From Blastopirellula retiformator (GTDB lineage: Bacteria > Planctomycetota > Planctomycetia > Pirellulales > Pirellulaceae): 64,000 nt of DNA. Every line of letters begins with the position of its first letter. The first letter of the stretch is position 1. Position numbers and translations under genes: made by a program. Positions 4,449 to 53,473 of this stretch are shown one piece after another. The DNA lies in contig NZ_SJPF01000003.1 in the NCBI RefSeq assembly GCF_007859755.1, forward strand, positions 620,001 to 684,000. The letters run 5' to 3'. The notes under the pieces were generated by a model, which worked only from the letters and a program-made list of their open reading frames with translations, made no database searches and was not told where the DNA came from.

Positions 4449-4590
4449 ATTGAAAATGTAGGTTGGGTGCAGCGGAGCGAAACCCAACAATGCGATCGCA
4501 GGCAGAAGGTGGGTTGCGCAAGCGGCGAATGCGTTATTGCGAAATGACTTTCTGAGCGCTTGCTCCATCCACCCTACAACTTGGAAAATG
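4449..4590. repeat. dispersed repeat family 2, copy 1
   Basis: About 130-140 bp of noncoding sequence beginning near GTAGGTTGGGTGCAGCGGAG and ending in CCATCCACCCTAC, with imperfect inverted ends (GTAGG...CCTAC). The core includes CCCAACAATGCG and AAGGTGGGTTGCGC. A second copy, inverted, lies at 12037-12165 and matches in the same blocks. This copy sits between the convergent stop codons of the EVE gene and prs. It has no coding capacity and may be a REP/MITE-like element. Confidence 0.65.
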
Positions 4591-8137: not shown

Positions 8138-8281
8138 ATGAAGACCACTTGGGAAGCGGATATCACGCTGAACAACGTCTTGCTGTGGGGCGTGATGGCG
8201 ACCAGCGGTCTGGCGGCGGTCAATTTGCTCCTCTGGGTATTGATGTGGACGCTGCTGTTCCTCCACTCAATCTCTTACTAG
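8138..8281 (+). CDS. 47-residue membrane peptide
   Basis: A short ORF starting at ATG 8138 with GGGGAAA as ribosome binding site at 8127-8133. The product has an acidic N-terminus (residues 1-10) and a long hydrophobic region (about 12-44) able to cross the membrane once or twice. It resembles the many small single-span proteins found in planctomycete genomes but no family is recognised. A second 47-codon ORF with one hydrophobic helix follows at 8459. Coding status rests on the binding site, hydrophobic composition and the clean spacing. Confidence 0.5.
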   Translation: MKTTWEADITLNNVLLWGVMATSGLAAVNLLLWVLMWTLLFLHSISY

Positions 8282-8458
8282 AGCGGTTTTCCTCCATCTG
8301 TATCGTTGTGGCTGGTTGCGGCCGCGCTGGTCGGCGTTGACCTGCATCGACGAATCTTGAGGATTCGCCTGCTTCGGTCGCCTTGACCAGCTTGCCTCAC
8401 TAACGCCAGAAACGCTACTGCGATCAGAAAAACGCTCAACACGCACGGGAAAACGACG

Positions 8459-8602
8459 ATGAGCCGCGACGTAACTGCTGATAATCGCTGGGCACGGACG
8501 ATCGCCACGCTTGGCTGTGGGATGATCCTCGTCATCGGCGCACTGATGACCTGCGCCGTTTACGGATTTCAAGCGCTGCGCGAAGTGGTCGCTGCGATTT
8601 AA
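8459..8602 (+). CDS. second 47-residue membrane peptide
   Basis: A short ORF from ATG 8459 to TAA 8600-8602, preceded by a purine-rich ACGGGAAAAC. It encodes a polar start (about 14 residues with two Arg) and one hydrophobic helix (about residues 15-38) containing two Cys. It ends immediately before the pseudogene remnant on the other strand. Function unknown. The opposite strand also has a hydrophobic frame here, so the coding assignment is tentative. Confidence 0.4.
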   Translation: MSRDVTADNRWARTIATLGCGMILVIGALMTCAVYGFQALREVVAAI

Positions 8603-8860
8603 GCCTTGTCCCAAGAGGGCTCGACGCCATCGGCGACCAGGCTGCGCTGGAAGTCGGCCAGTTTATCGGCCGAACCGCGAATTCCGCGAGGCGAGAGTTT
8701 GCTATCCAGCGCAAAGCTGGCCAGGCAACCAGCCGCTTCGCCGATGCCCCATTCGACCGGATGCAATCGATAGCAACCGTTGGTCAGATGGGTCGTGCCG
8801 ATGTTCTTTCAGGCGGGAATCAAATTCTCAACGCGCTGCGGGATCGTAAAGGTGGTCGTA
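8603..8860 (-). pseudogene. C-terminal remnant of a FAD-dependent oxidoreductase
   Basis: Reading the minus strand gives FTIPQRVENLIPA, then TGA, then KNIGTTHLTNGCYRLHPVEW and GIGEAAGCLASF, ending in SWDKA and TAA at 8603. This is the C-terminal signature of the large secreted FAD-dependent oxidoreductase family common in planctomycetes, where the residue at the TGA position is normally Cys (TGC to TGA is one base). All upstream sequence of such a gene (about 600 residues) is missing. Next to it is the 5' part of a sulfatase gene, so the two relics were joined by a deletion. Confidence 0.7.
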
Positions 8861-9166
8861 GTCAGGCGCCTCGTTGCGGGTCATGTCGTAGGCGCCGTTT
8901 CGCTGCGGATATCGCCCGGTCATCAGCGAGCCCCGCGACGGCGTACAGGCGGGCCAAGAGACATAGAAGCTGGTCAACCGAGTTCCGGCCGCGGCCAGGG
9001 CATCCAAGTGCGGCGTCCGGACGCCGTTGCAACTGAGATCGGCGAAGCCCTGGTCGTCGGAGACGATTAGGACGACGTTGGACGGACGCGTTGCTTGTTC
9101 GTCCGCAAGGGCGATGGTGGCCAGCGCAAACGATCCGAAAACGGCAAGCAGGCAATACTTCGTCAT
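8861..9166 (-). pseudogene. N-terminal fragment of a sulfatase
   Basis: The frame from 9166 encodes a signal peptide (about residues 1-22, ending ALADEQ), the metal-binding start of a type I sulfatase (VVLIVSDDQGFADLSCNG) and the formylglycine motif CTPSRGSLMTGRYPQRNG, in which Cys would be oxidised to formylglycine. It then stops at 8828 after only 112 residues; intact sulfatases have about 450-550. The match to sulfatases fades around 8860 where the oxidoreductase relic begins. Without the C-terminal metal and sulfate ligands it cannot be active. Confidence 0.8.
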
Positions 9167-11134: not shown

Positions 11135-11767
11135 ATGAGTATCAGCATCGTTGTTGCAGACGACCATGAAGTGGTTCGTAGCGGCTTGGCAAGTTTGCTC
11201 AAAGGGACAGCTATCAGCATTGTTGACGAAGCGTCCAATGGAGAAGAAGCGGTCGAAAAAGCGATCGCCCACCACCCCGATGTGGTTTTGATGGACATCC
11301 GGATGCCTAACACCGATGGTCTGGGCGCCCTCGAAAAGATTAAGAAAGAATCCCCTAACACGCGGGTCATCATGTTGTCGACTTACGACAACCCGACCTA
11401 CGTCGCGCGGGGCGTCGCTTTGGGGGCTTATGATTACGTGTTGAAGGGGTCGTCGCGCGAAACGATCGTCACCGCGATCGAGAACGCCGCCGCCGATCAG
11501 CCGATCGCCGAAGACAGCCTGATGAATCGCGTCCGCGGCGCGATGGCCAAACGTCAGGAAGCCAAGCACAGCGACATTCCGCTTACCAATCGCGAAATGC
11601 AGGTCCTGCGTCACTTGGCGCTGGGGCTGAGCAACCGCGAGATCGGTCGTTCGCTGAACATCAGCATCGAGACGGTCAAAGAACACGTGCAAAACATTTT
11701 GCGCAAGATCGACGTGACCGATCGTACGCAAGCGGCGGTCTGGGCCGTTCGCCGCGGCTTGGTCTAA
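11135..11767 (+). CDS. NarL/FixJ-family response regulator
   Basis: A 210-residue two-domain regulator. The receiver (1-120) has the acidic pocket D9-D10, phosphoacceptor D54 and K104. The LuxR-type helix-turn-helix is at about 150-205 (LTNREMQVLRHLALGLSNRE). ATG 11135 is chosen because GGAGAAG lies 8 bp upstream and the receiver starts at once; the longer frame from 11027 adds 36 residues of no known type. No histidine kinase gene is adjacent. The stop codon TAA lies within the 4-bp CTAA that flanks a small mobile element, and the native terminator comes only after that element. Confidence 0.92.
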   Translation: MSISIVVADDHEVVRSGLASLLKGTAISIVDEASNGEEAVEKAIAHHPDVVLMDIRMPNTDGLGALEKIKKESPNTRVIMLSTYDNPTYVARGVALGAYDYVLKGSSRETIVTAIENAAADQPIAEDSLMNRVRGAMAKRQEAKHSDIPLTNREMQVLRHLALGLSNREIGRSLNISIETVKEHVQNILRKIDVTDRTQAAVWAVRRGLV

Positions 11768-11921
11768 CTGCCTGTTGAAAAATGGCCTCGTGGCATTTTC
11801 CAACCTCGCCAGGCTCAGAGCATAGCTCTTCGCGGCTCCCAAAATAACGACTTACGGTCGCTATTTTGGGAGCGCATCCCTGCGATCCAGCAGCCTGTTG
11901 AGAAAATCAACGGACTGCTAA
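11764..11921. mobile_element. CTAR-flanked stem-loop element, copy A
   Basis: A 150-bp body (11768-11917) flanked on both sides by direct CTAA (11764-11767 and 11918-11921), which looks like a 4-bp target-site duplication. Body ends CTGCCTGTTGA and, inverted, CAGTCCGTTGA form imperfect terminal inverted repeats. Inside are four stem-loops: a near-perfect GTTGAAAAATGCC-type hairpin, AGAGC/GCTCT, a hairpin around AAAATAACGAC, and the terminal CAACGGACTG hairpin. The left CTAA carries the TAA stop of the NarL-type gene. It separates that gene from its intrinsic terminator. Relatives are at 13973, 40755 and 53359. Confidence 0.8.
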
Positions 11922-11947
11922 GCCTTACGACAAACGCGAATCCGATC

Positions 11948-11980
11948 GAGACCGCCTTTCCCTGGGCGGTCTCTTTTTTT
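11948..11980 (+). terminator. intrinsic terminator of the NarL-type gene
   Basis: Stem GAGACCGCC / GGCGGTCTC closing a 7-8 base loop, followed by seven T. It lies 180 bp after the stop codon because copy A of the mobile element lies in between. Confidence 0.85.
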
Positions 11981-12036
11981 GCGCGTTGCCTCCGCCATCA
12001 GAAACCGCAAAAATAATAGCAAGCTGTCGAAAGCAT

Positions 12037-12165
12037 CTGTCGGGTGGGTGAAGCGAGCCCAAGGTTGTTGTTTGGCTCGAAACGTTCAGTCGCTCGCGCA
12101 ACCCACCTTTCGCTGGCAAACGCATTGTTGGGCCAGCGCTTCGTTGCACCCAACCTAACCCCCAT
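12037..12165. repeat. dispersed repeat family 2, copy 2 (inverted)
   Basis: About 125 bp whose reverse complement aligns with 4449-4590: shared blocks are AGGTTGGGTGCA, CCCAACAATGCG, AAAGGTGGGTTGCGC and a closing CCCACC(C)-type end. It lies between the NarL-type terminator and the start of the secreted protein at 12185. No coding potential. Confidence 0.65.
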
Positions 12166-12184
12166 CACTTAAGAGAAACGTTTC

Positions 12185-12673
12185 ATGACTCGCACCACAT
12201 CGCTCCCTTCCGTTTGTGCGTTGGCGCTGATGGCCATCGCGCCGAGTCTCTCGCTCGCCGAAGAAGCGAAACCGACCGCCGAACAGAAAGCGTTGTTCGA
12301 AAAGTTCAGCAAGACGTTGACTGGTTCGGTCTTGGTCGGCAAGTTCACCATCGTTGGTCGCGACATGCCGCCGAAGGAAGAACGCTACGAGATCAAGAGC
12401 GTGCACAAGTTGGACCAGGGAGATCTCTGGTTGTTTAACGCCCGGGTGAAGTACGGCGACAAAGACGCGGTGATTCCGATGCCGCTGGAAGTGAAGTGGG
12501 CCGGGAAGACGCCAGTCATCACGCTCGACAATGTGGCGATTCCGGGGCTGGGGACCTTCAGTTCGCACGTGGTGATCGACGGCGACAAGTATGCCGGAAC
12601 CTGGACTCATGGCGAAGTGAGCGGACACCTGTTTGGCCGCATCGAAACGAAGGCCTCCGCCGCGGCGGAGTAA
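12185..12673 (+). CDS. secreted protein of unknown function
   Basis: A 162-residue protein with a clear signal peptide (cleavage probably after about residue 24, SLSLA) and a mature domain of about 135 residues rich in beta-type alternation. It has no cysteine pairs or catalytic motif I recognise. The composition and length fit a small periplasmic or extracellular beta-barrel/sandwich. AAGAGAAACG upstream of ATG 12185 serves as ribosome binding site. A strong hairpin closes the gene. It is probably planctomycete-specific. Confidence 0.7.
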   Translation: MTRTTSLPSVCALALMAIAPSLSLAEEAKPTAEQKALFEKFSKTLTGSVLVGKFTIVGRDMPPKEERYEIKSVHKLDQGDLWLFNARVKYGDKDAVIPMPLEVKWAGKTPVITLDNVAIPGLGTFSSHVVIDGDKYAGTWTHGEVSGHLFGRIETKASAAAE

Positions 12674-12705
12674 GCGACACGTGCTGCGCGTACGTCAGCG
12701 CAACA

Positions 12706-12738
12706 GAAGAGGCGATTCCGTGAAGGAATCGCCTCTTC
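12706..12738. terminator. bidirectional hairpin terminator
   Basis: Perfect 14-bp stem GAAGAGGCGATTCC / GGAATCGCCTCTTC with a 5-base loop between two convergent genes (ends 12673 and 12770). The T-rich tail GCGTTTCTT follows on the plus strand. Confidence 0.7.
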
Positions 12739-12769
12739 GCGTTTCTTGGAGCATAGTCGCTGCGTAGGA

Positions 12770-13723
12770 CTATTCTCCTTCCGCTTCCGCCTCGGGGGCC
12801 GCTTCCGCTTTTTCTTCGCCGCGCGGCTTAGTCACCGGATCGCCGCTGGGGGCGTTGGCCAGAACTTTGAGCGACTCGATGCAGCTGATCATTTCTTCCA
12901 GCTTGATCTCGGTCCAGCCCATCGCCTTGTGACGAATGATCGCCAACTTCATGGCGTCGAACGCTTCGAGCACGTCTTCCGGCAGCTTGCCGATCTCGGA
13001 GAACGGCTTGACCAGCGTCGGTTGTTCTTCTGGAGCGGCTTCCGATTCTTCGCCGGACTGCGAGACTTCGCGCGGCAAGGCGCCAGGGGCGTCTTCATCG
13101 CCAAAGTCAGGACCTTCCGGAACCGGCATGCCATCGTGCGGTTCGATCTCGCCGACGCTTCCCTTTAGTTCCGAGTCGCCCCCTTCGGCATGCGGCTCAA
13201 AGTCTTCGTCCAACTCGGTCACGACGACGTCTTCGTCGCGCGGGCGGTCATTTTCGAGGCTTCCCATCGTTTCCCAACGTTGGCCCCGCATCGTCGCCAC
13301 CGACCAGCTATTTTGGACGGCGCCTTCCAGCCACATTTCGGCGTCTTCCCAGTCGATCGCCGCCTGGAAGTGGCTCCAGAACAGCTTGTCGAACTTCTCG
13401 TAGACGTCGCCGAAACGATCGTAGACGCGGCGCAGGCGGCCGACATGCTGTCCGGTCACCGAGCCGACGCGGCTCGCCCAGGCTTCGTCCGAGTATTCGG
13501 TGGCTGGGGCTTGTTGTTCGGTCAGCGACTGCCGCCACTGAGCGATAATCCGGCCCTTTTCCCAGTTGGTGGTCGAAACCAACGAGTTCCAGCGACCGAC
13601 ATAGGGCTGCGAAGCCGTATTGAGTCGGGCGATTTCCTCCGACGAGATTTCCTGATCGTTAAGGTCCGCTGCCGAAGCTTCGATCGAATCCAGCTTGGTG
13701 GATTCGGGCGATTGTTCTTCCAT
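12770..13723 (-). CDS. acidic protein of unknown function
   Basis: A 317-residue soluble protein. Residues about 30-160 form a helical, Trp-rich domain (W at several positions around WNSLVSTTNWEKGRI and LFWSHFQAAIDWEDAEMW). The middle (165-230) is a low-complexity acidic linker rich in Asp, Glu, Gly and Pro, followed by a short helical domain (about 235-290) and an Ala/Glu-rich tail. The architecture of two small helical domains joined by an acidic linker suggests a protein- or DNA-associated adaptor, but no family is recognised. It starts at ATG 13723 after AGGAATCTCAGGGC. Confidence 0.65.
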   Translation of the reverse strand: MEEQSPESTKLDSIEASAADLNDQEISSEEIARLNTASQPYVGRWNSLVSTTNWEKGRIIAQWRQSLTEQQAPATEYSDEAWASRVGSVTGQHVGRLRRVYDRFGDVYEKFDKLFWSHFQAAIDWEDAEMWLEGAVQNSWSVATMRGQRWETMGSLENDRPRDEDVVVTELDEDFEPHAEGGDSELKGSVGEIEPHDGMPVPEGPDFGDEDAPGALPREVSQSGEESEAAPEEQPTLVKPFSEIGKLPEDVLEAFDAMKLAIIRHKAMGWTEIKLEEMISCIESLKVLANAPSGDPVTKPRGEEKAEAAPEAEAEGE

Positions 13724-13886
13724 GCCCTGAGATTCCTCGGTTAAAAGACTGCAAGCGCCGCCGTGAAAGGCGGTTCATCAAACGAGCGGGATGGATTCTA
13801 GGACCCTGCCGCTAGCTAGAAAACGGGGTGCGCGGCGAGATTGTTCGCCAGAAATCGCGCACGCGGCGGCAAACTGTTGAGACGAA

Positions 13887-13959
13887 CCGATTTCGAGAAA
13901 GCGAAATCGGCGTGAAGTTGTCGCTGAGGTTGGGGATAAGTTGTCGACCGATCGTCGAC
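13887..13959. other. two palindromes in the 13724-13972 intergenic region
   Basis: CCGATTTCG (13887-13895) pairs with CGAAATCGG (13902-13910), and GTCGAC (13943-13948) pairs with GTCGAC (13954-13959) after a 5-base gap. They lie in the 249-bp noncoding gap just left of mobile element copy B. They could be operators or hairpins; no gene is seen in the gap. Confidence 0.35.
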
Positions 13960-13972
13960 TTTTGGGCGCGAC

Positions 13973-14129
13973 CTAGCTGCCTGTTGAAAAATGCCCTCGT
14001 GGCATTTTTCAACCTCGCCAAGCTCAGAGCGTAGCTCTTCGCGGCTCGCAAAATAACGACTTGCGTCGCTATTTTGGGATCGCATCCGTGCGATCACGCA
14101 GTCCGTCGAGAAAATCAACGGACTGCTAG
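13973..14129. mobile_element. CTAR-flanked stem-loop element, copy B
   Basis: A 149-bp body (13977-14125) flanked by CTAG on both sides. It has the same order of stem-loops as copy A, including the perfect hairpin GTTGAAAAATGCC / GGCATTTTTCAAC at the left end and CAGTCCGT / ACGGACTG at the right end. The right CTAG provides the TAG stop codon of the CDGSH gene read on the minus strand (14126-14128). Confidence 0.8.
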
Positions 14130-14326
14130 GCCCGTTCGTTCGATTCGAAGCCGCAACCCTTGTGCGCGCCGTCGCAAAACGGACGGTTGGCCGACTGGCC
14201 GCAGCGGCACAGGGCGATCGCCGGTTTGTCGATGGTGTAGGTGTTGCCCTCGGCGTCTTCCAGGGTTACTGGACCTTCGACGAGAAACGGCCCGTTATCA
14301 CGAATGCGAATCTTGGCTTCCGACAT
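14126..14326 (-). CDS. CDGSH iron-sulfur domain protein
   Basis: A 66-residue protein with the 2Fe-2S ligand set C40, C42, C51 and H55 in CRCGQSANRPFCDGAHKG, the hallmark of CDGSH (mitoNEET-type) domains. The family uses a 3Cys-1His cluster for electron or cluster transfer. The N-terminal 30 residues are a short beta domain (IRIRDNGPFLVEG), as in other small bacterial members. AGGGAAC lies before the ATG. The stop codon coincides with the end of a mobile element. Confidence 0.92.
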   Translation of the reverse strand: MSEAKIRIRDNGPFLVEGPVTLEDAEGNTYTIDKPAIALCRCGQSANRPFCDGAHKGCGFESNERA

Positions 14327-36761: not shown

Positions 36762-37751
36762 CTATGACGCGTCATGCTGGCGACACCAGGCGAGGATCTC
36801 GTCCGTTGTTGTCGGCAATGAGCCTTGGCCTGGCTGCTCGCTCTTGGCCGGCGGCGGTTCTGCCGCGGGCGGAGGCGTTTCCGGTTCCGACTTCTTGGCC
36901 CGGGCTGCCGCCAAAATGTCGGCGGTACTCATCGCAGCAGGAGCCGACGGCTTGGCTGCAGGTTCGCTCTCCGCCGTTTTTTTTCCGCGGGCAGCGGCCA
37001 GAATATCGGCGGTGCTCATCGGACCGGCGGCAGGTTTCTCGGCAGGCGGGGCTTTCGGGGCTTCGCCGGATTCGCCCTTTTTCGCGCGGGCTGCCGCCAA
37101 GATGTCTGCCGTGCTCATCGCGTCACTGGCAGGCTTTTCGGCCGGCGCGGCGTCCGACTTCTTGGCCCGAGCCGCTGCCAGGATATCGGCGGTACTCATC
37201 GGGCCGGCGGCCGGTTTGTCGGATGCACCCATCTTGTTGGCCGGTGGGTCTGTCGACTTTTTGGCCCGGGCGGCGGCCAAGATGTCGGCGGTGCTAGTCG
37301 GCTTGGCGGCTGGTTCGTCCCCTTTGGCAGCGGGGCTTTCCCCCTTCTTCGCGCGAGCGGCCGCCAGAATATCGGCCGTGCTCGTACTAGCGGCTGTCTT
37401 CTTGGGGGCTGGCTTGGCGGGCGCGTCCCCTTTTTGACCTCGCGCGGCGGCCAGGATATCGGCGGCGCTGGCGCCTGACTTGGGAGGGGCTGGCTTCTTG
37501 GCGGCCGGTTTCTTTTCGGCGACTGGTTTCGGCTTCGGCGGGTTGACCACTTTCAGAAAGTCGACGTTGATGTCGTACCAGCCGGTGTTGTTGAGCCCGT
37601 CAAATTCGACCAGGGCTCGGCCGCTCATATTGATCGTACGCACGATGCCGGTCATGGCGGCGAATCGTTTTAGCTCGGGGCGATCGTGGTCCACCACGAC
37701 ATACTTGTCGGTGTATTCCCGTTTGAGCTTTTCGATGTGTTCAAAAACCAT
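36762..37751 (-). CDS. protein with seven to eight repeats of an ADILAAARAKK helix motif
   Basis: A 329-residue protein from ATG 37751. Residues 1-75 form a small beta domain (YVVVDHDRPELKRFAAMTG, then GRALVEFDGLNNTGWYDIN). After it, a Lys/Ala/Pro linker holds seven copies of S(T/A)ADILAAAR(A/G)(K/Q)K spaced by 20-35 residues, plus a degenerate last copy TTTDEILAWCRQHDAS. The conserved core is an amphipathic helix of about 10 residues. Such a layout suits a scaffold with many binding sites for the same partner. The gene is next to pabA/trpG and the TPR gene; no known family. Confidence 0.8.
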   Translation of the reverse strand: MVFEHIEKLKREYTDKYVVVDHDRPELKRFAAMTGIVRTINMSGRALVEFDGLNNTGWYDINVDFLKVVNPPKPKPVAEKKPAAKKPAPPKSGASAADILAAARGQKGDAPAKPAPKKTAASTSTADILAAARAKKGESPAAKGDEPAAKPTSTADILAAARAKKSTDPPANKMGASDKPAAGPMSTADILAAARAKKSDAAPAEKPASDAMSTADILAAARAKKGESGEAPKAPPAEKPAAGPMSTADILAAARGKKTAESEPAAKPSAPAAMSTADILAAARAKKSEPETPPPAAEPPPAKSEQPGQGSLPTTTDEILAWCRQHDAS

Positions 37752-40455: not shown

Positions 40456-40758
40456 ATGTTAGAAGTTCGTCTCACTTCTGCAGCGCGTCACGATTTGGGG
40501 ACGATCTGGTCCTACGTCGCAGATAAGAGCGTCTCTGCCGCAGAGCGGCTACTCGAAGGGGCGGGACGGCGATTTGAATTGCTAGCGAGAAACCCAGAAC
40601 TCGGAGAGATCCGTAAAACTGTAAATGGGCTCGAAAGCCGCTGGTTTTCTTTCCAGCAATACGCCATCTATGATCAAGCAACAGATGACGGGTTGATTGT
40701 CCTTCGCGTCCTCCATGGCGCCCGAGACCAAGAGGCGACTTTGATCATCGACGACTAG
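40456..40758 (+). CDS. ParE/RelE-family toxin
   Basis: A 100-residue toxin of the RelE/ParE fold. The N-terminal helix VRLTSAARHDLGTIWSYVAD, the RRFELLARNPELGEIRK segment and the C-terminal RWFSFQQYAIYDQATDDGLI plus VLRVLHGARD are family hallmarks. ParE members poison DNA gyrase; RelE members cleave mRNA, and ParE is favoured by the ParD-like neighbour. The frame is intact though its antitoxin is interrupted. The TAG stop lies in the CTAG that flanks mobile element copy C. Confidence 0.9.
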   Translation: MLEVRLTSAARHDLGTIWSYVADKSVSAAERLLEGAGRRFELLARNPELGEIRKTVNGLESRWFSFQQYAIYDQATDDGLIVLRVLHGARDQEATLIIDD

Positions 40759-40877
40759 CAGTCCGTTGATTTTCTGAACGGGCTGCTGGATCGCAGGGAT
40801 GCGAGCCGCGAAGAGCTATGCTCTGAGCCTGGCGAGGTTGGAAAATGCCACGATGGCATTTTTCAACAGGCAGCTAG
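40755..40877. mobile_element. CTAR-flanked stem-loop element, copy C
   Basis: A 115-bp body (40759-40873) flanked by CTAG on both sides, in inverted orientation relative to copies A and B. It lacks the 35-bp hairpin around AAAATAACGAC found in A, B and D. It exactly fills the gap between the convergent toxin and scpB genes: the left CTAG holds the toxin TAG (40756-40758), the right CTAG holds the scpB TAG on the other strand (40876-40874). The terminal GTTGAAAAATGCC-type hairpin may stop both transcripts. Confidence 0.85.
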
Positions 40878-41635
40878 TCCTCCAGATCCAACCCCAACGG
40901 TTGCGGCAGGTCTTCCAGCGACGAGAGCCGGAACATCTCCAGAAAGCGGTCGGTCGTTGAGTACGTTTTTTTCTTCTCTTTCCCTTTGCCGCTTCGCTCG
41001 AGTTGCAGCAGTTCGCGGCGAACCAGTTGATTCAGTAGCGGGCCGCTCGGTTTGCCGCGTAGTTGGTCGACTTCTTCGCGGGTGACGTTTTGGTTGTAGG
41101 CGACCAGGGCTAGCACATCGACTGCTGGTTGCGACAGTTTCGCCTCGCGGACTTTGCCATAGAACTTTTCTCGCAGGCGGCCAAACTCGTCGCGCAGCGA
41201 CATTCGGAAACCGCCGCCGGACGAGACGATCTCGTAGGGGCAGCCTTCTTCGAGATAGGCCTGGTTCAGCTCTTCGACGATGTCGGCGATTTCGTCAACG
41301 CCGACGCCGCGCATCCGGGCAGCGCCTTTTTCGGCCGACAAGGGAGAATTGTCGGGACTGCCGACAAACAGCATCGCCTCGAGAATGGTGCGCGGCGATA
41401 GCTCGCAATCGTCCGGCTCTTCTTCGGTCGCCAGCACCCGGGCGACCGCTTCTTCGGACGACTCTTCTTCTTCGGCGGTCGGCTCAGCAGGGGCTTCCTC
41501 TTCGCTAACCTCGTACGGTTCGTCCCCCCCCATCGCAGCAGCGAACGCGGCGCTCAGCTTCTCCAGCGACAACCCTTCGTCCAGGTCGTCGTCAAAGTCG
41601 TCGTCATCGTCAGGGGGAAGTTCGCTGCTGCTCAT
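40874..41635 (-). CDS. scpB: segregation and condensation protein B (ScpB) with acidic N-terminus
   Basis: A 253-residue protein. Residues ~80-250 hold the two winged-helix domains of ScpB (LSPRTILEAMLFVGSPDNSP, LSQPAVDVLALVAYNQNVTR, VRRELLQLERSGKGK), which binds the SMC-ScpA complex in chromosome compaction. The first ~80 residues are an extra, strongly acidic tail rich in Asp, Glu and Ala, not present in typical ScpB (about 180-200). It ends at a mobile element and follows an isomerase gene by 7 bp. No scpA is adjacent. Confidence 0.9.
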   Translation of the reverse strand: MSSSELPPDDDDDFDDDLDEGLSLEKLSAAFAAAMGGDEPYEVSEEEAPAEPTAEEEESSEEAVARVLATEEEPDDCELSPRTILEAMLFVGSPDNSPLSAEKGAARMRGVGVDEIADIVEELNQAYLEEGCPYEIVSSGGGFRMSLRDEFGRLREKFYGKVREAKLSQPAVDVLALVAYNQNVTREEVDQLRGKPSGPLLNQLVRRELLQLERSGKGKEKKKTYSTTDRFLEMFRLSSLEDLPQPLGLDLED

Positions 41636-53015: not shown

Positions 53016-53358
53016 CTATTTTTTCTGGCTCGCAACGTCCTCCTGACTGACGTCAAAGGTGAACTCGTTGCTCCCTTCGGTGACTTCCGCGGTTAGCGGC
53101 GTCGTCTCTGGACGACGGACTTTACGCGGCAATTTCCAGGGAAGTTGCTCCTGCTTTTCCAGCGGAACGCCAGGCAGCGGCGGAGGTCCTTCCGGCGGTA
53201 GCAAGGTCACCGCGTATTGGCCAGTCGCCACGTCGCTAAGGTGAACTGTGCCGCTGGCGTCGAGCTTGCCGCAATACGACTCGCCGTTTTCTCGGCACGA
53301 TAGATCAATCATGGCGGCTTCCAGCGGCATTTCGCCCTTGGAGGCGGTGATGGCAACG
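53016..53358 (-). pseudogene. carboxypeptidase-regulatory-like protein gene truncated by a mobile element
   Basis: The minus-strand frame encodes about 114 residues of a beta-sandwich regulatory-like domain: GDVAITASKGEMPLEAAMID, CGKLDASGTVHLSDVATGQY, AVTLLPPEGPPPLPG and a tail ending SQEDVASQKK. Such planctomycete proteins normally begin with a lipoprotein signal. Here everything upstream of the GDV start is replaced by mobile element sequence (53359-53473), which continues the open frame as MIFSADCVIARMRSQN... to TTG 53462. A start at ATG 53330 would still give 104 residues, without a signal. Confidence 0.7.
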
Positions 53359-53473
53359 TCGCCAGGCTCAGAGCATAGCTCTTCGCGGCTCGCAAAATAA
53401 CGACGTAAGTCGTTATTTTGCGAGCGCATCCGTGCGATCACGCAGTCTGCCGAGAAAATCAACGGACTGCTAG
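53359..53473. mobile_element. CTAR-flanked stem-loop element, copy D (left end missing)
   Basis: A 115-bp copy in the A/B orientation that begins inside the element at TCGCCAGGCTCAGAGCATAG and ends at CTAG (53470-53473). The GTTGAAAAATGCC hairpin is missing. It keeps AGAGC/GCTCT, an almost perfect CGCAAAATAACGAC / GTCGTTATTTTGCG hairpin and the terminal hairpin. Its left border joins directly to the remnant of a regulatory-like gene, so a deletion followed or accompanied the insertion. Confidence 0.8.

Follow-up and report, generated by a model that had tools for sequence, protein, structure and literature searches.

A new 149-bp MITE family with a history of transposition at YTAR sites, a structurally conserved hairpin body and a 3′-end landing pattern, probably driven by an IS1182-like element

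The DNA analysed here, which we refer to as the window, is a stretch of 64,000 nucleotides (contig C3:620001-684000) from a 6.2-Mb draft genome, G000. Within it lie four copies (A to D) of a short repeat element, arranged with their flanking tetranucleotides and neighbouring genes as follows.

11764-11767, plus strand: left target duplication of copy A, CTAA, whose TAA terminates a predicted LuxR-type response regulator gene (11135-11767)
11768-11917, plus strand: copy A, an element of 150 bp
11918-11921, plus strand: right target duplication of copy A, CTAA
13973-13976, plus strand: left target duplication of copy B, CTAG
13977-14125, plus strand: copy B, an element of 149 bp with five predicted hairpins
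14126-14129, plus strand: right target duplication of copy B, CTAG, which contains the stop of a minus-strand CDGSH iron-binding gene (predicted 14126-14326)
40755-40758, plus strand: target duplication of copy C, CTAG, which contains the stop of a plus-strand ParE-like toxin gene (40456-40758)
40759-40873, minus strand: copy C, a 115-bp form without the third hairpin
40874-40877, plus strand: other target duplication of copy C, CTAG, which contains the stop of minus-strand scpB (40874-41635)
about 53354-53468, plus strand: copy D, truncated on the left and without the left terminal repeat and first hairpin, followed by CTAG at 53469-53472

Copies A, B and D lie on the plus strand and copy C on the minus strand. 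An earlier reading of the window from its sequence only (the sequence-only reading) had described four copies, the intact ones with imperfect terminal inverted repeats, with CTAA on both sides of copy A and CTAG on both sides of copies B and C. All of this was confirmed, the tetranucleotides to the base and the ends of A, B and C as the imperfect repeats CTGCCTGTTGA and CAGTCCGTTGA. Copy D is uninformative on target duplication, since its left end has been lost. All three window copies that have both ends (A, B and C) abut stop codons. At copy C, where the ParE-like gene and scpB converge, a single CTAG could once have supplied the stops of both genes. A small minus-strand reading frame at 53016-53462, which has a weak Ig-like match, extends into the truncated copy D, and its apparent N-terminus is therefore encoded by a remnant of the element.

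We determined how often the element occurs across G000 using patterns for its left end and its core. The exact left-end pattern TANNTGCCTGTTGAAAAA, 18 bases with two of them open, occurs 219 times and a 28-base core, allowing up to 3 mismatches, occurs 297 times, compared with no matches in the same 6.2 Mb for the reversed-pattern controls of either, demonstrating that the copies are not due to chance. The first 100 of the 219 left ends were read as an unselected sample. A recognisable right end was found at 86 of them, the remaining 14 loci being truncated copies, mini-elements of palindromic form or copies that another insertion sequence has interrupted. Pooling all loci yielded a larger set of 109 unique full copies with enough flanking sequence, 99 of which are 149 bp long; these 99 have a mean identity of 96.7% to their consensus. 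The others span 98-150 bp, and since elements of 98-150 bp are too short to encode a transposase, the family carries no transposase gene of its own. The three congeners G001, G002 and G003 hold only 2, 7 and 5 matches, respectively, indicating that most copies arose in the G000 lineage. Whether relatives share the copies had been raised in the sequence-only reading as a check on mobility, and with so few matches in these congeners most of the G000 copies cannot be common to them. Some old copies are nevertheless common to G001 and G003, with flanks that match by eye (L095/L098, L099/L108, L224/L227 and L228/L231), and a core scan of viral contigs recovered one contig (L209) that carries a copy. 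The family is thus a clean, countable bacterial burst, amounting to ∼0.7% of the genome if every core is full length. A copy number in the hundreds is high and is no record, passages of PMC10969869 giving 711 copies of ERIC in one Photorhabdus genome. As to the mini-elements, one at G000:C1:686325-686373 (L052/L053) is a 43-bp palindrome that consists of two left ends with CTAG on both sides, and L240 is a still shorter deletion form.

Evidence for transposition came from the flanks of the copies and from sites without an insertion. Identical 4-bp flanks were present at 70 of the 86 sampled copies, compared with an average of 19.3 when the right flanks were permuted, none of the 5000 shuffles giving more than 34. 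In the larger set the flanks were identical in 86 of 109, mostly YTAR, and the left flank fits YTAR in 93 of 109; most of the 23 copies with unequal flanks differ by one base. The paired flanks co-vary from copy to copy, occurring as CTAG, TTAG, CTAA, CTAT, CTAC, TTAT, ATAA and TTAA. Moreover, three copies (L057, L121 and L139) are nested in a second repeat family, among whose other members empty counterparts of the insertion sites could be found, these empty sites being paralogous rather than allelic. The filled site at L139 reads CTAA-[149 bp]-CTAA. Its empty counterpart, a 40-base sequence with a single CTAA, recurs without a mismatch at four further loci, namely L014 (the same as L111), L063 (the same as L199), L147 and L240. 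For L121 and L057 the comparison is less exact, one of the two flanks being different in each. When joined flanks were used as queries, 10 of 109 matched across the junction, 3 of them in the second repeat and the rest at 69-77% identity. The matched flanks together with the base-exact empty sites demonstrate that the element moved with duplication of 4 bp, bearing out the mobility and target duplication proposed in the sequence-only reading. The element is a non-autonomous MITE with a history of transposition at YTAR.

The second repeat family is itself short (∼158 bp), with ends GAGCG[GT]TTTTC.../...GAAAAACGCTC, and has one window copy at ∼8280-8437. It occupies about 17 distinct places among the loci examined, and three of these contain a full 149-bp MITE. 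The window also contains an inverted pair of 42-nt stretches (4483-4524 and 12091-12132; 83%) around AACCCACC. Sequence similar to both stretches occurs in the flank of MITE copy L128, and they perhaps represent a third repeat family.

We next consider where the copies landed. Genes were predicted automatically, by a codon-usage scan trained on the window, and each reconstructed empty site was classed accordingly. In the sample of 86 copies the duplicated 4-mer lay on a stop codon in 32, was intergenic in 50 and fell inside genes in 4, the corresponding figures for the set of 109 being 38, 66 and 5. The 234 YTAR sites of the window itself divide into stop, intergenic and inside as 28 : 91 : 115. 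Stop-codon sites are therefore enriched overall (p = 1e-6), and weakly so when non-coding sites alone are considered (p = 0.03). Orientation is also biased: between co-directional genes, 39 copies are sense and 14 antisense (p = 0.0008), and on stop codons 25 are sense and 12 antisense, with one shared (p = 0.047). Landing on stop codons would most readily be explained by YTAR containing TAA or TAG and by the tolerance of 3′ ends for insertions. One copy, L022 (G000:C3:400681-403834), lies inside a tRNA array, between tRNA-Tyr and tRNA-Arg. ARAGORN recognises nine tRNA genes in this array, one with an odd predicted anticodon (ATT).

RNA folding of copy B gave five hairpins in a row, with a predicted energy of −61.7 kcal/mol for the plus strand, shuffled sequences averaging −39.5 (z = −6.0), and of −72.8 kcal/mol for the other strand (z = −8.1). 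The chain of stem-loops described in the sequence-only reading is thus real, the number being five and not the four at most that had been counted. We built a covariance model of the body from 16 sequences and searched 241 genomes of the family, obtaining matches in 11, including all 4 members of the genus examined; marginal matches in G007 and G010 (E 0.004-0.008) were treated as chance. Five genomes of a second genus, g8 (G032, G033, G035, G036 and G037), have one match each. In all five it occupies the same position of a tRNA array, flanked by tRNA-Asp and by a tRNA called Val or Cys, and lies on the strand of the tRNA genes. The sixth g8 genome, G031, had no match to the body model. The g8 copies conserve the loops GGCATCRTRCC and CATYC, and the core where it is present; their stems differ in sequence, and G037 and G033 have lost the second hairpin.

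The changes in the stems were analysed in two alignments, one fitted to the structure and comprising the 20 model matches with E up to 1e-6, the other a MAFFT alignment, not fitted to the structure, of 16 of these with the weakest four omitted. In the unfitted alignment 60 pair cells were doubly changed, compared with 20 after shuffling and at most 17 when the structure was slid along the sequence. A weaker measure, the number of further pair types, gave 32 compared with 28, and 28 of 500 shuffles did as well; owing to slippage in this alignment, pairing of the third helix was only 79%. In the structure-fitted alignment the doubly changed cells numbered 115 as against 33 shuffled. These data show that the hairpins are kept as hairpins by compensatory change across two genera. 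Their upkeep may reflect selection on RNA or single-stranded DNA, or else hairpin-correcting mutation, and the chain might conceivably act in either form, as a shield for mRNA 3′ ends or as an aid to transposase recognition.

Since the element encodes no transposase, it would be moved in trans by way of its imperfect ends (CTGCCTGTTGA.../CAGTCCGTTGA...), presumably by an enzyme of the DDE class. Such a transposase would place the MITE into YTAR and duplicate 4 bp, the duplication being the part of this step that flanks and empty sites reveal. From the end sequences, its most likely source would be an IS1182-like element with ends CAGCCTGTTGATTTTC. We consider it quite likely that this explanation is correct as a whole (a MITE moved in trans, inserting at YTAR, with an IS1182-like driver and a hairpin-chain body), and the identification of an IS1182-like element as the driver, insertion chemistry aside, is likewise probable on the sequence comparisons that follow.

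In G000 the IS1182-like group with ends CAGCCTGTTGATTTTC is represented only by broken copies (L203, L242 and L243). Searching G000 with a pattern for right-type ends that continue into sequence other than the usual MITE bases gave 4 sites, two of which are MITE variants (L240 and L244). At L243/L245 the right end matches 15 of 16 MITE right-end bases and is preceded by 71 C-terminal transposase residues, the broken element being interrupted by a REP/RAYT block. At L242 a left end survives for ∼50 bp before an ISAs1 copy cuts it off; this end resembles the left end of L249, a frameshifted copy in congener G003, the right end of which in turn runs into a different element. L203 retains a frame of 405 codons that lacks the N-terminus and is 55% identical to L251 over 350 residues; a right end, CAGCCCGTTGA, adjoins CTAG 20-40 bp downstream of the gene, and no left end was found at this locus. 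We found no intact driver in G000, although a gap of the draft assembly may hide one, and driver searches of viral contigs and plasmids returned nothing.

A protein search for relatives of the likely driver gave matches in 15 of the 241 family genomes. Allowing up to 2 mismatches and a spacing of 1.1-2.0 kb, both ends could be located in 7 of 17 loci (L248-L264), 1460-1476 bp apart. The motif CAGC[CG][TC]GTTGA stands at 13 of their 14 ends and each of the 14 flanks is YTAR; five of the seven have an open frame of more than 450 codons, L252 and L255 having none such. A terminal repeat similar to that of the MITE is thus carried beside YTAR by IS1182-like elements, which are more complete in other genera than the broken copies of G000. 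Identical 4-bp flanks were however present in just 1 of the 7, compared with 86 of 109 MITE copies (p = 0.0009); a different mode of insertion in the IS1182-like group, or the age of these copies, may account for this. The best NCBIfam model for both L251 and L203 is IS1182 (198 and 163 bits, below the cut-off of 270). By eye, only the outer 10-16 bases are common to the MITE and the IS1182-like elements, the body of the MITE being unlike their interior. Passages of PMC5678879 report that IS1272, of the IS1182 family, replaces stem-loops without target duplication, whereas the MITE duplicates 4 bp.

Other transposase genes near such ends were also considered. L201 (G000:C4, ∼8513-9022) is an IS1182 gene that scores above the cut-off (333.9 bits), and MITE-type ends beside it occur only as a MITE copy, which sits between the gene and an outer inverted repeat, GGTAGGGTGCGTC.... 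DDE elements of 406 codons that lie beside two relic ends were rejected as the driver, as they belong to ISAs1 (NF033564, one copy tested) and have their own ends and ∼10-bp duplications. This ISAs1-family element (L186-L195) is present in about ten copies with ∼10-bp duplications, some of which adjoin two relic IS1182-like ends. DDE_5 (IS701) had no match in G000.

The sequence-only reading had favoured an IS5-type helper. A subgroup of IS5 uses YTAR targets and therefore resembles the MITE in target consensus and duplication length, and the IS1182-like transposases themselves also reach 88.2 and 94.8 bits with the NCBIfam IS5 model transpos_IS5_4, whose cut-off is 140. However, in a scan that covered the 24 loci of G000 with a DDE_Tnp_1 match and allowed up to 2 mismatches, none was bounded by a pair of MITE ends, which occur there only as MITE copies or unpaired at L187, L190 and L203. 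Moreover, L185, the one gene among those tested to exceed an IS5 cut-off (213.9 bits), has other ends, and the carriers of matching ends score highest to IS1182. An IS5-family transposase is consequently an improbable mover of the MITE. A different parentage was suggested by 2 of the first 30 left-end loci, which ran into a transposase gene. The gene is IS4 (NF033592, 217 bits, cut-off 115) and has six copies in G000, and at L061, L063, L065 and L066 it lies between the halves of a MITE, resembling a parent of ∼1.7 kb with matching outer ends from which the MITE could have formed by internal deletion. Yet the IS4-family element is bounded by terminal sequences of its own, CAATACTGTTCGGCACG, recognised (up to 3 mismatches) on one or both sides in 21 of 25 related loci, nearly all of them from planctomycetes, and its outer flanks are unrelated across these relatives. 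Exact 9-bp duplications surround it at 4 of its 6 own copies (L061, L063, L064 and L066), and the flanks at L065 agree in 8 of 9 bases; L064 and, by eye, several relatives lie in AAAGGGGACG-type repeats rather than in a MITE. We rejected the deletion-derivative reading on these grounds, the ends of the insertion sequence being CAATACTGTTCGGCAC and those of the MITE not being its ends, and regard it as extremely unlikely. The independent ends, 9-bp duplications and unrelated flanks instead identify the IS4-family element as an insertion into the loop of the first MITE hairpin, which forms both flanks in 4 of the 6 own copies (L061, L063, L065 and L066) and one flank in L062. Also very unlikely is an identity as a REP/BIME-type palindrome, mobilised by a tyrosine (Y1) transposase, for which the chain of palindromes, their mostly intergenic position, the high copy number and the presence of a RAYT-like gene (PF01797 above the cut-off; NF047646 at 55.9 bits, below the cut-off of 80) might be cited. 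REPs tagged with GTAG or CGTC are similarly palindromic and numerous and are reported from Planctomycetes in passages of PMC3733652; in contrast, the MITE has 4-bp duplications that co-vary on both sides and empty sites that are exact to the base, and GTAG and CGTC, which the same passages give as the tags of two REP super-families, are both absent as marks of its ends. As a separate observation, IS4-family relatives in other genomes (L067-L088) insert, by eye, in apparent palindromic repeats.

While these alternatives concern the enzyme, a further one concerns the body, which could be a functional structured RNA spread by transposition, with the tRNA-array copy of g8 as its resident or domesticated form. 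Compensatory change across loci, the single copy on the tRNA strand at the same place of the array in each of the five g8 genomes and the 39:14 sense bias would all fit. This hypothesis is weakened however by the lack of an Rfam family that covers the element (one match in window 11700-14200, with E 3.4 and 14 bits compared with a gathering score of 46.7, and no listed match covering it at L182/L183), by the deletion of the second hairpin in G037 and G033 and by the missing match in G031. Template switching can keep hairpins paired without selection. In addition, because G000 itself has a MITE in a tRNA array (L022), the second genus may merely hold an old insertion and not the source. We therefore think a functional RNA somewhat unlikely; a more specific version, in which the body would be a functional RNA cargo captured between IS1182-type ends, spread as a sense-oriented 3′-end element and persisting in the g8 tRNA array, is unlikely. 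Were the hairpins functional, transposition would be a route that distributes structured RNA to many gene ends.

The IS1182-driven MITE that we favour shares much with prokaryotic MITEs such as Correia, ERIC, QMITE and Chunjie, characterised in passages of PMC10969869 as short, non-coding and intergenic, with terminal inverted repeats and direct repeats, forming stem-loops and present in tens to hundreds of copies; like QMITE2 in that account, it is also a target for another insertion sequence. It differs in having a five-hairpin body that is kept by compensatory change, a size nearly fixed at 149 bp and a body that also occurs, stripped of the ends, within a tRNA array of a second genus. Among titles and abstract openings of the papers listed in searches on MITEs in Planctomycetes and on MITEs with IS1182, we found no description of the present family. 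These results point to a new MITE family, with demonstrated transposition at YTAR, a structurally conserved body and a 3′-end landing pattern, that is probably driven by an IS1182-like element. The case joins a burst, a driver seen only broken in G000, base-exact empty sites, strong 3′-end landing and hairpins that evolve in step. Elsewhere in the window, seven imperfect direct repeats of ∼43-49 nt lie at 36883-37465; their spacings (81, 87 and 99 nt) are all multiples of three, so that they probably encode a repeated protein motif.
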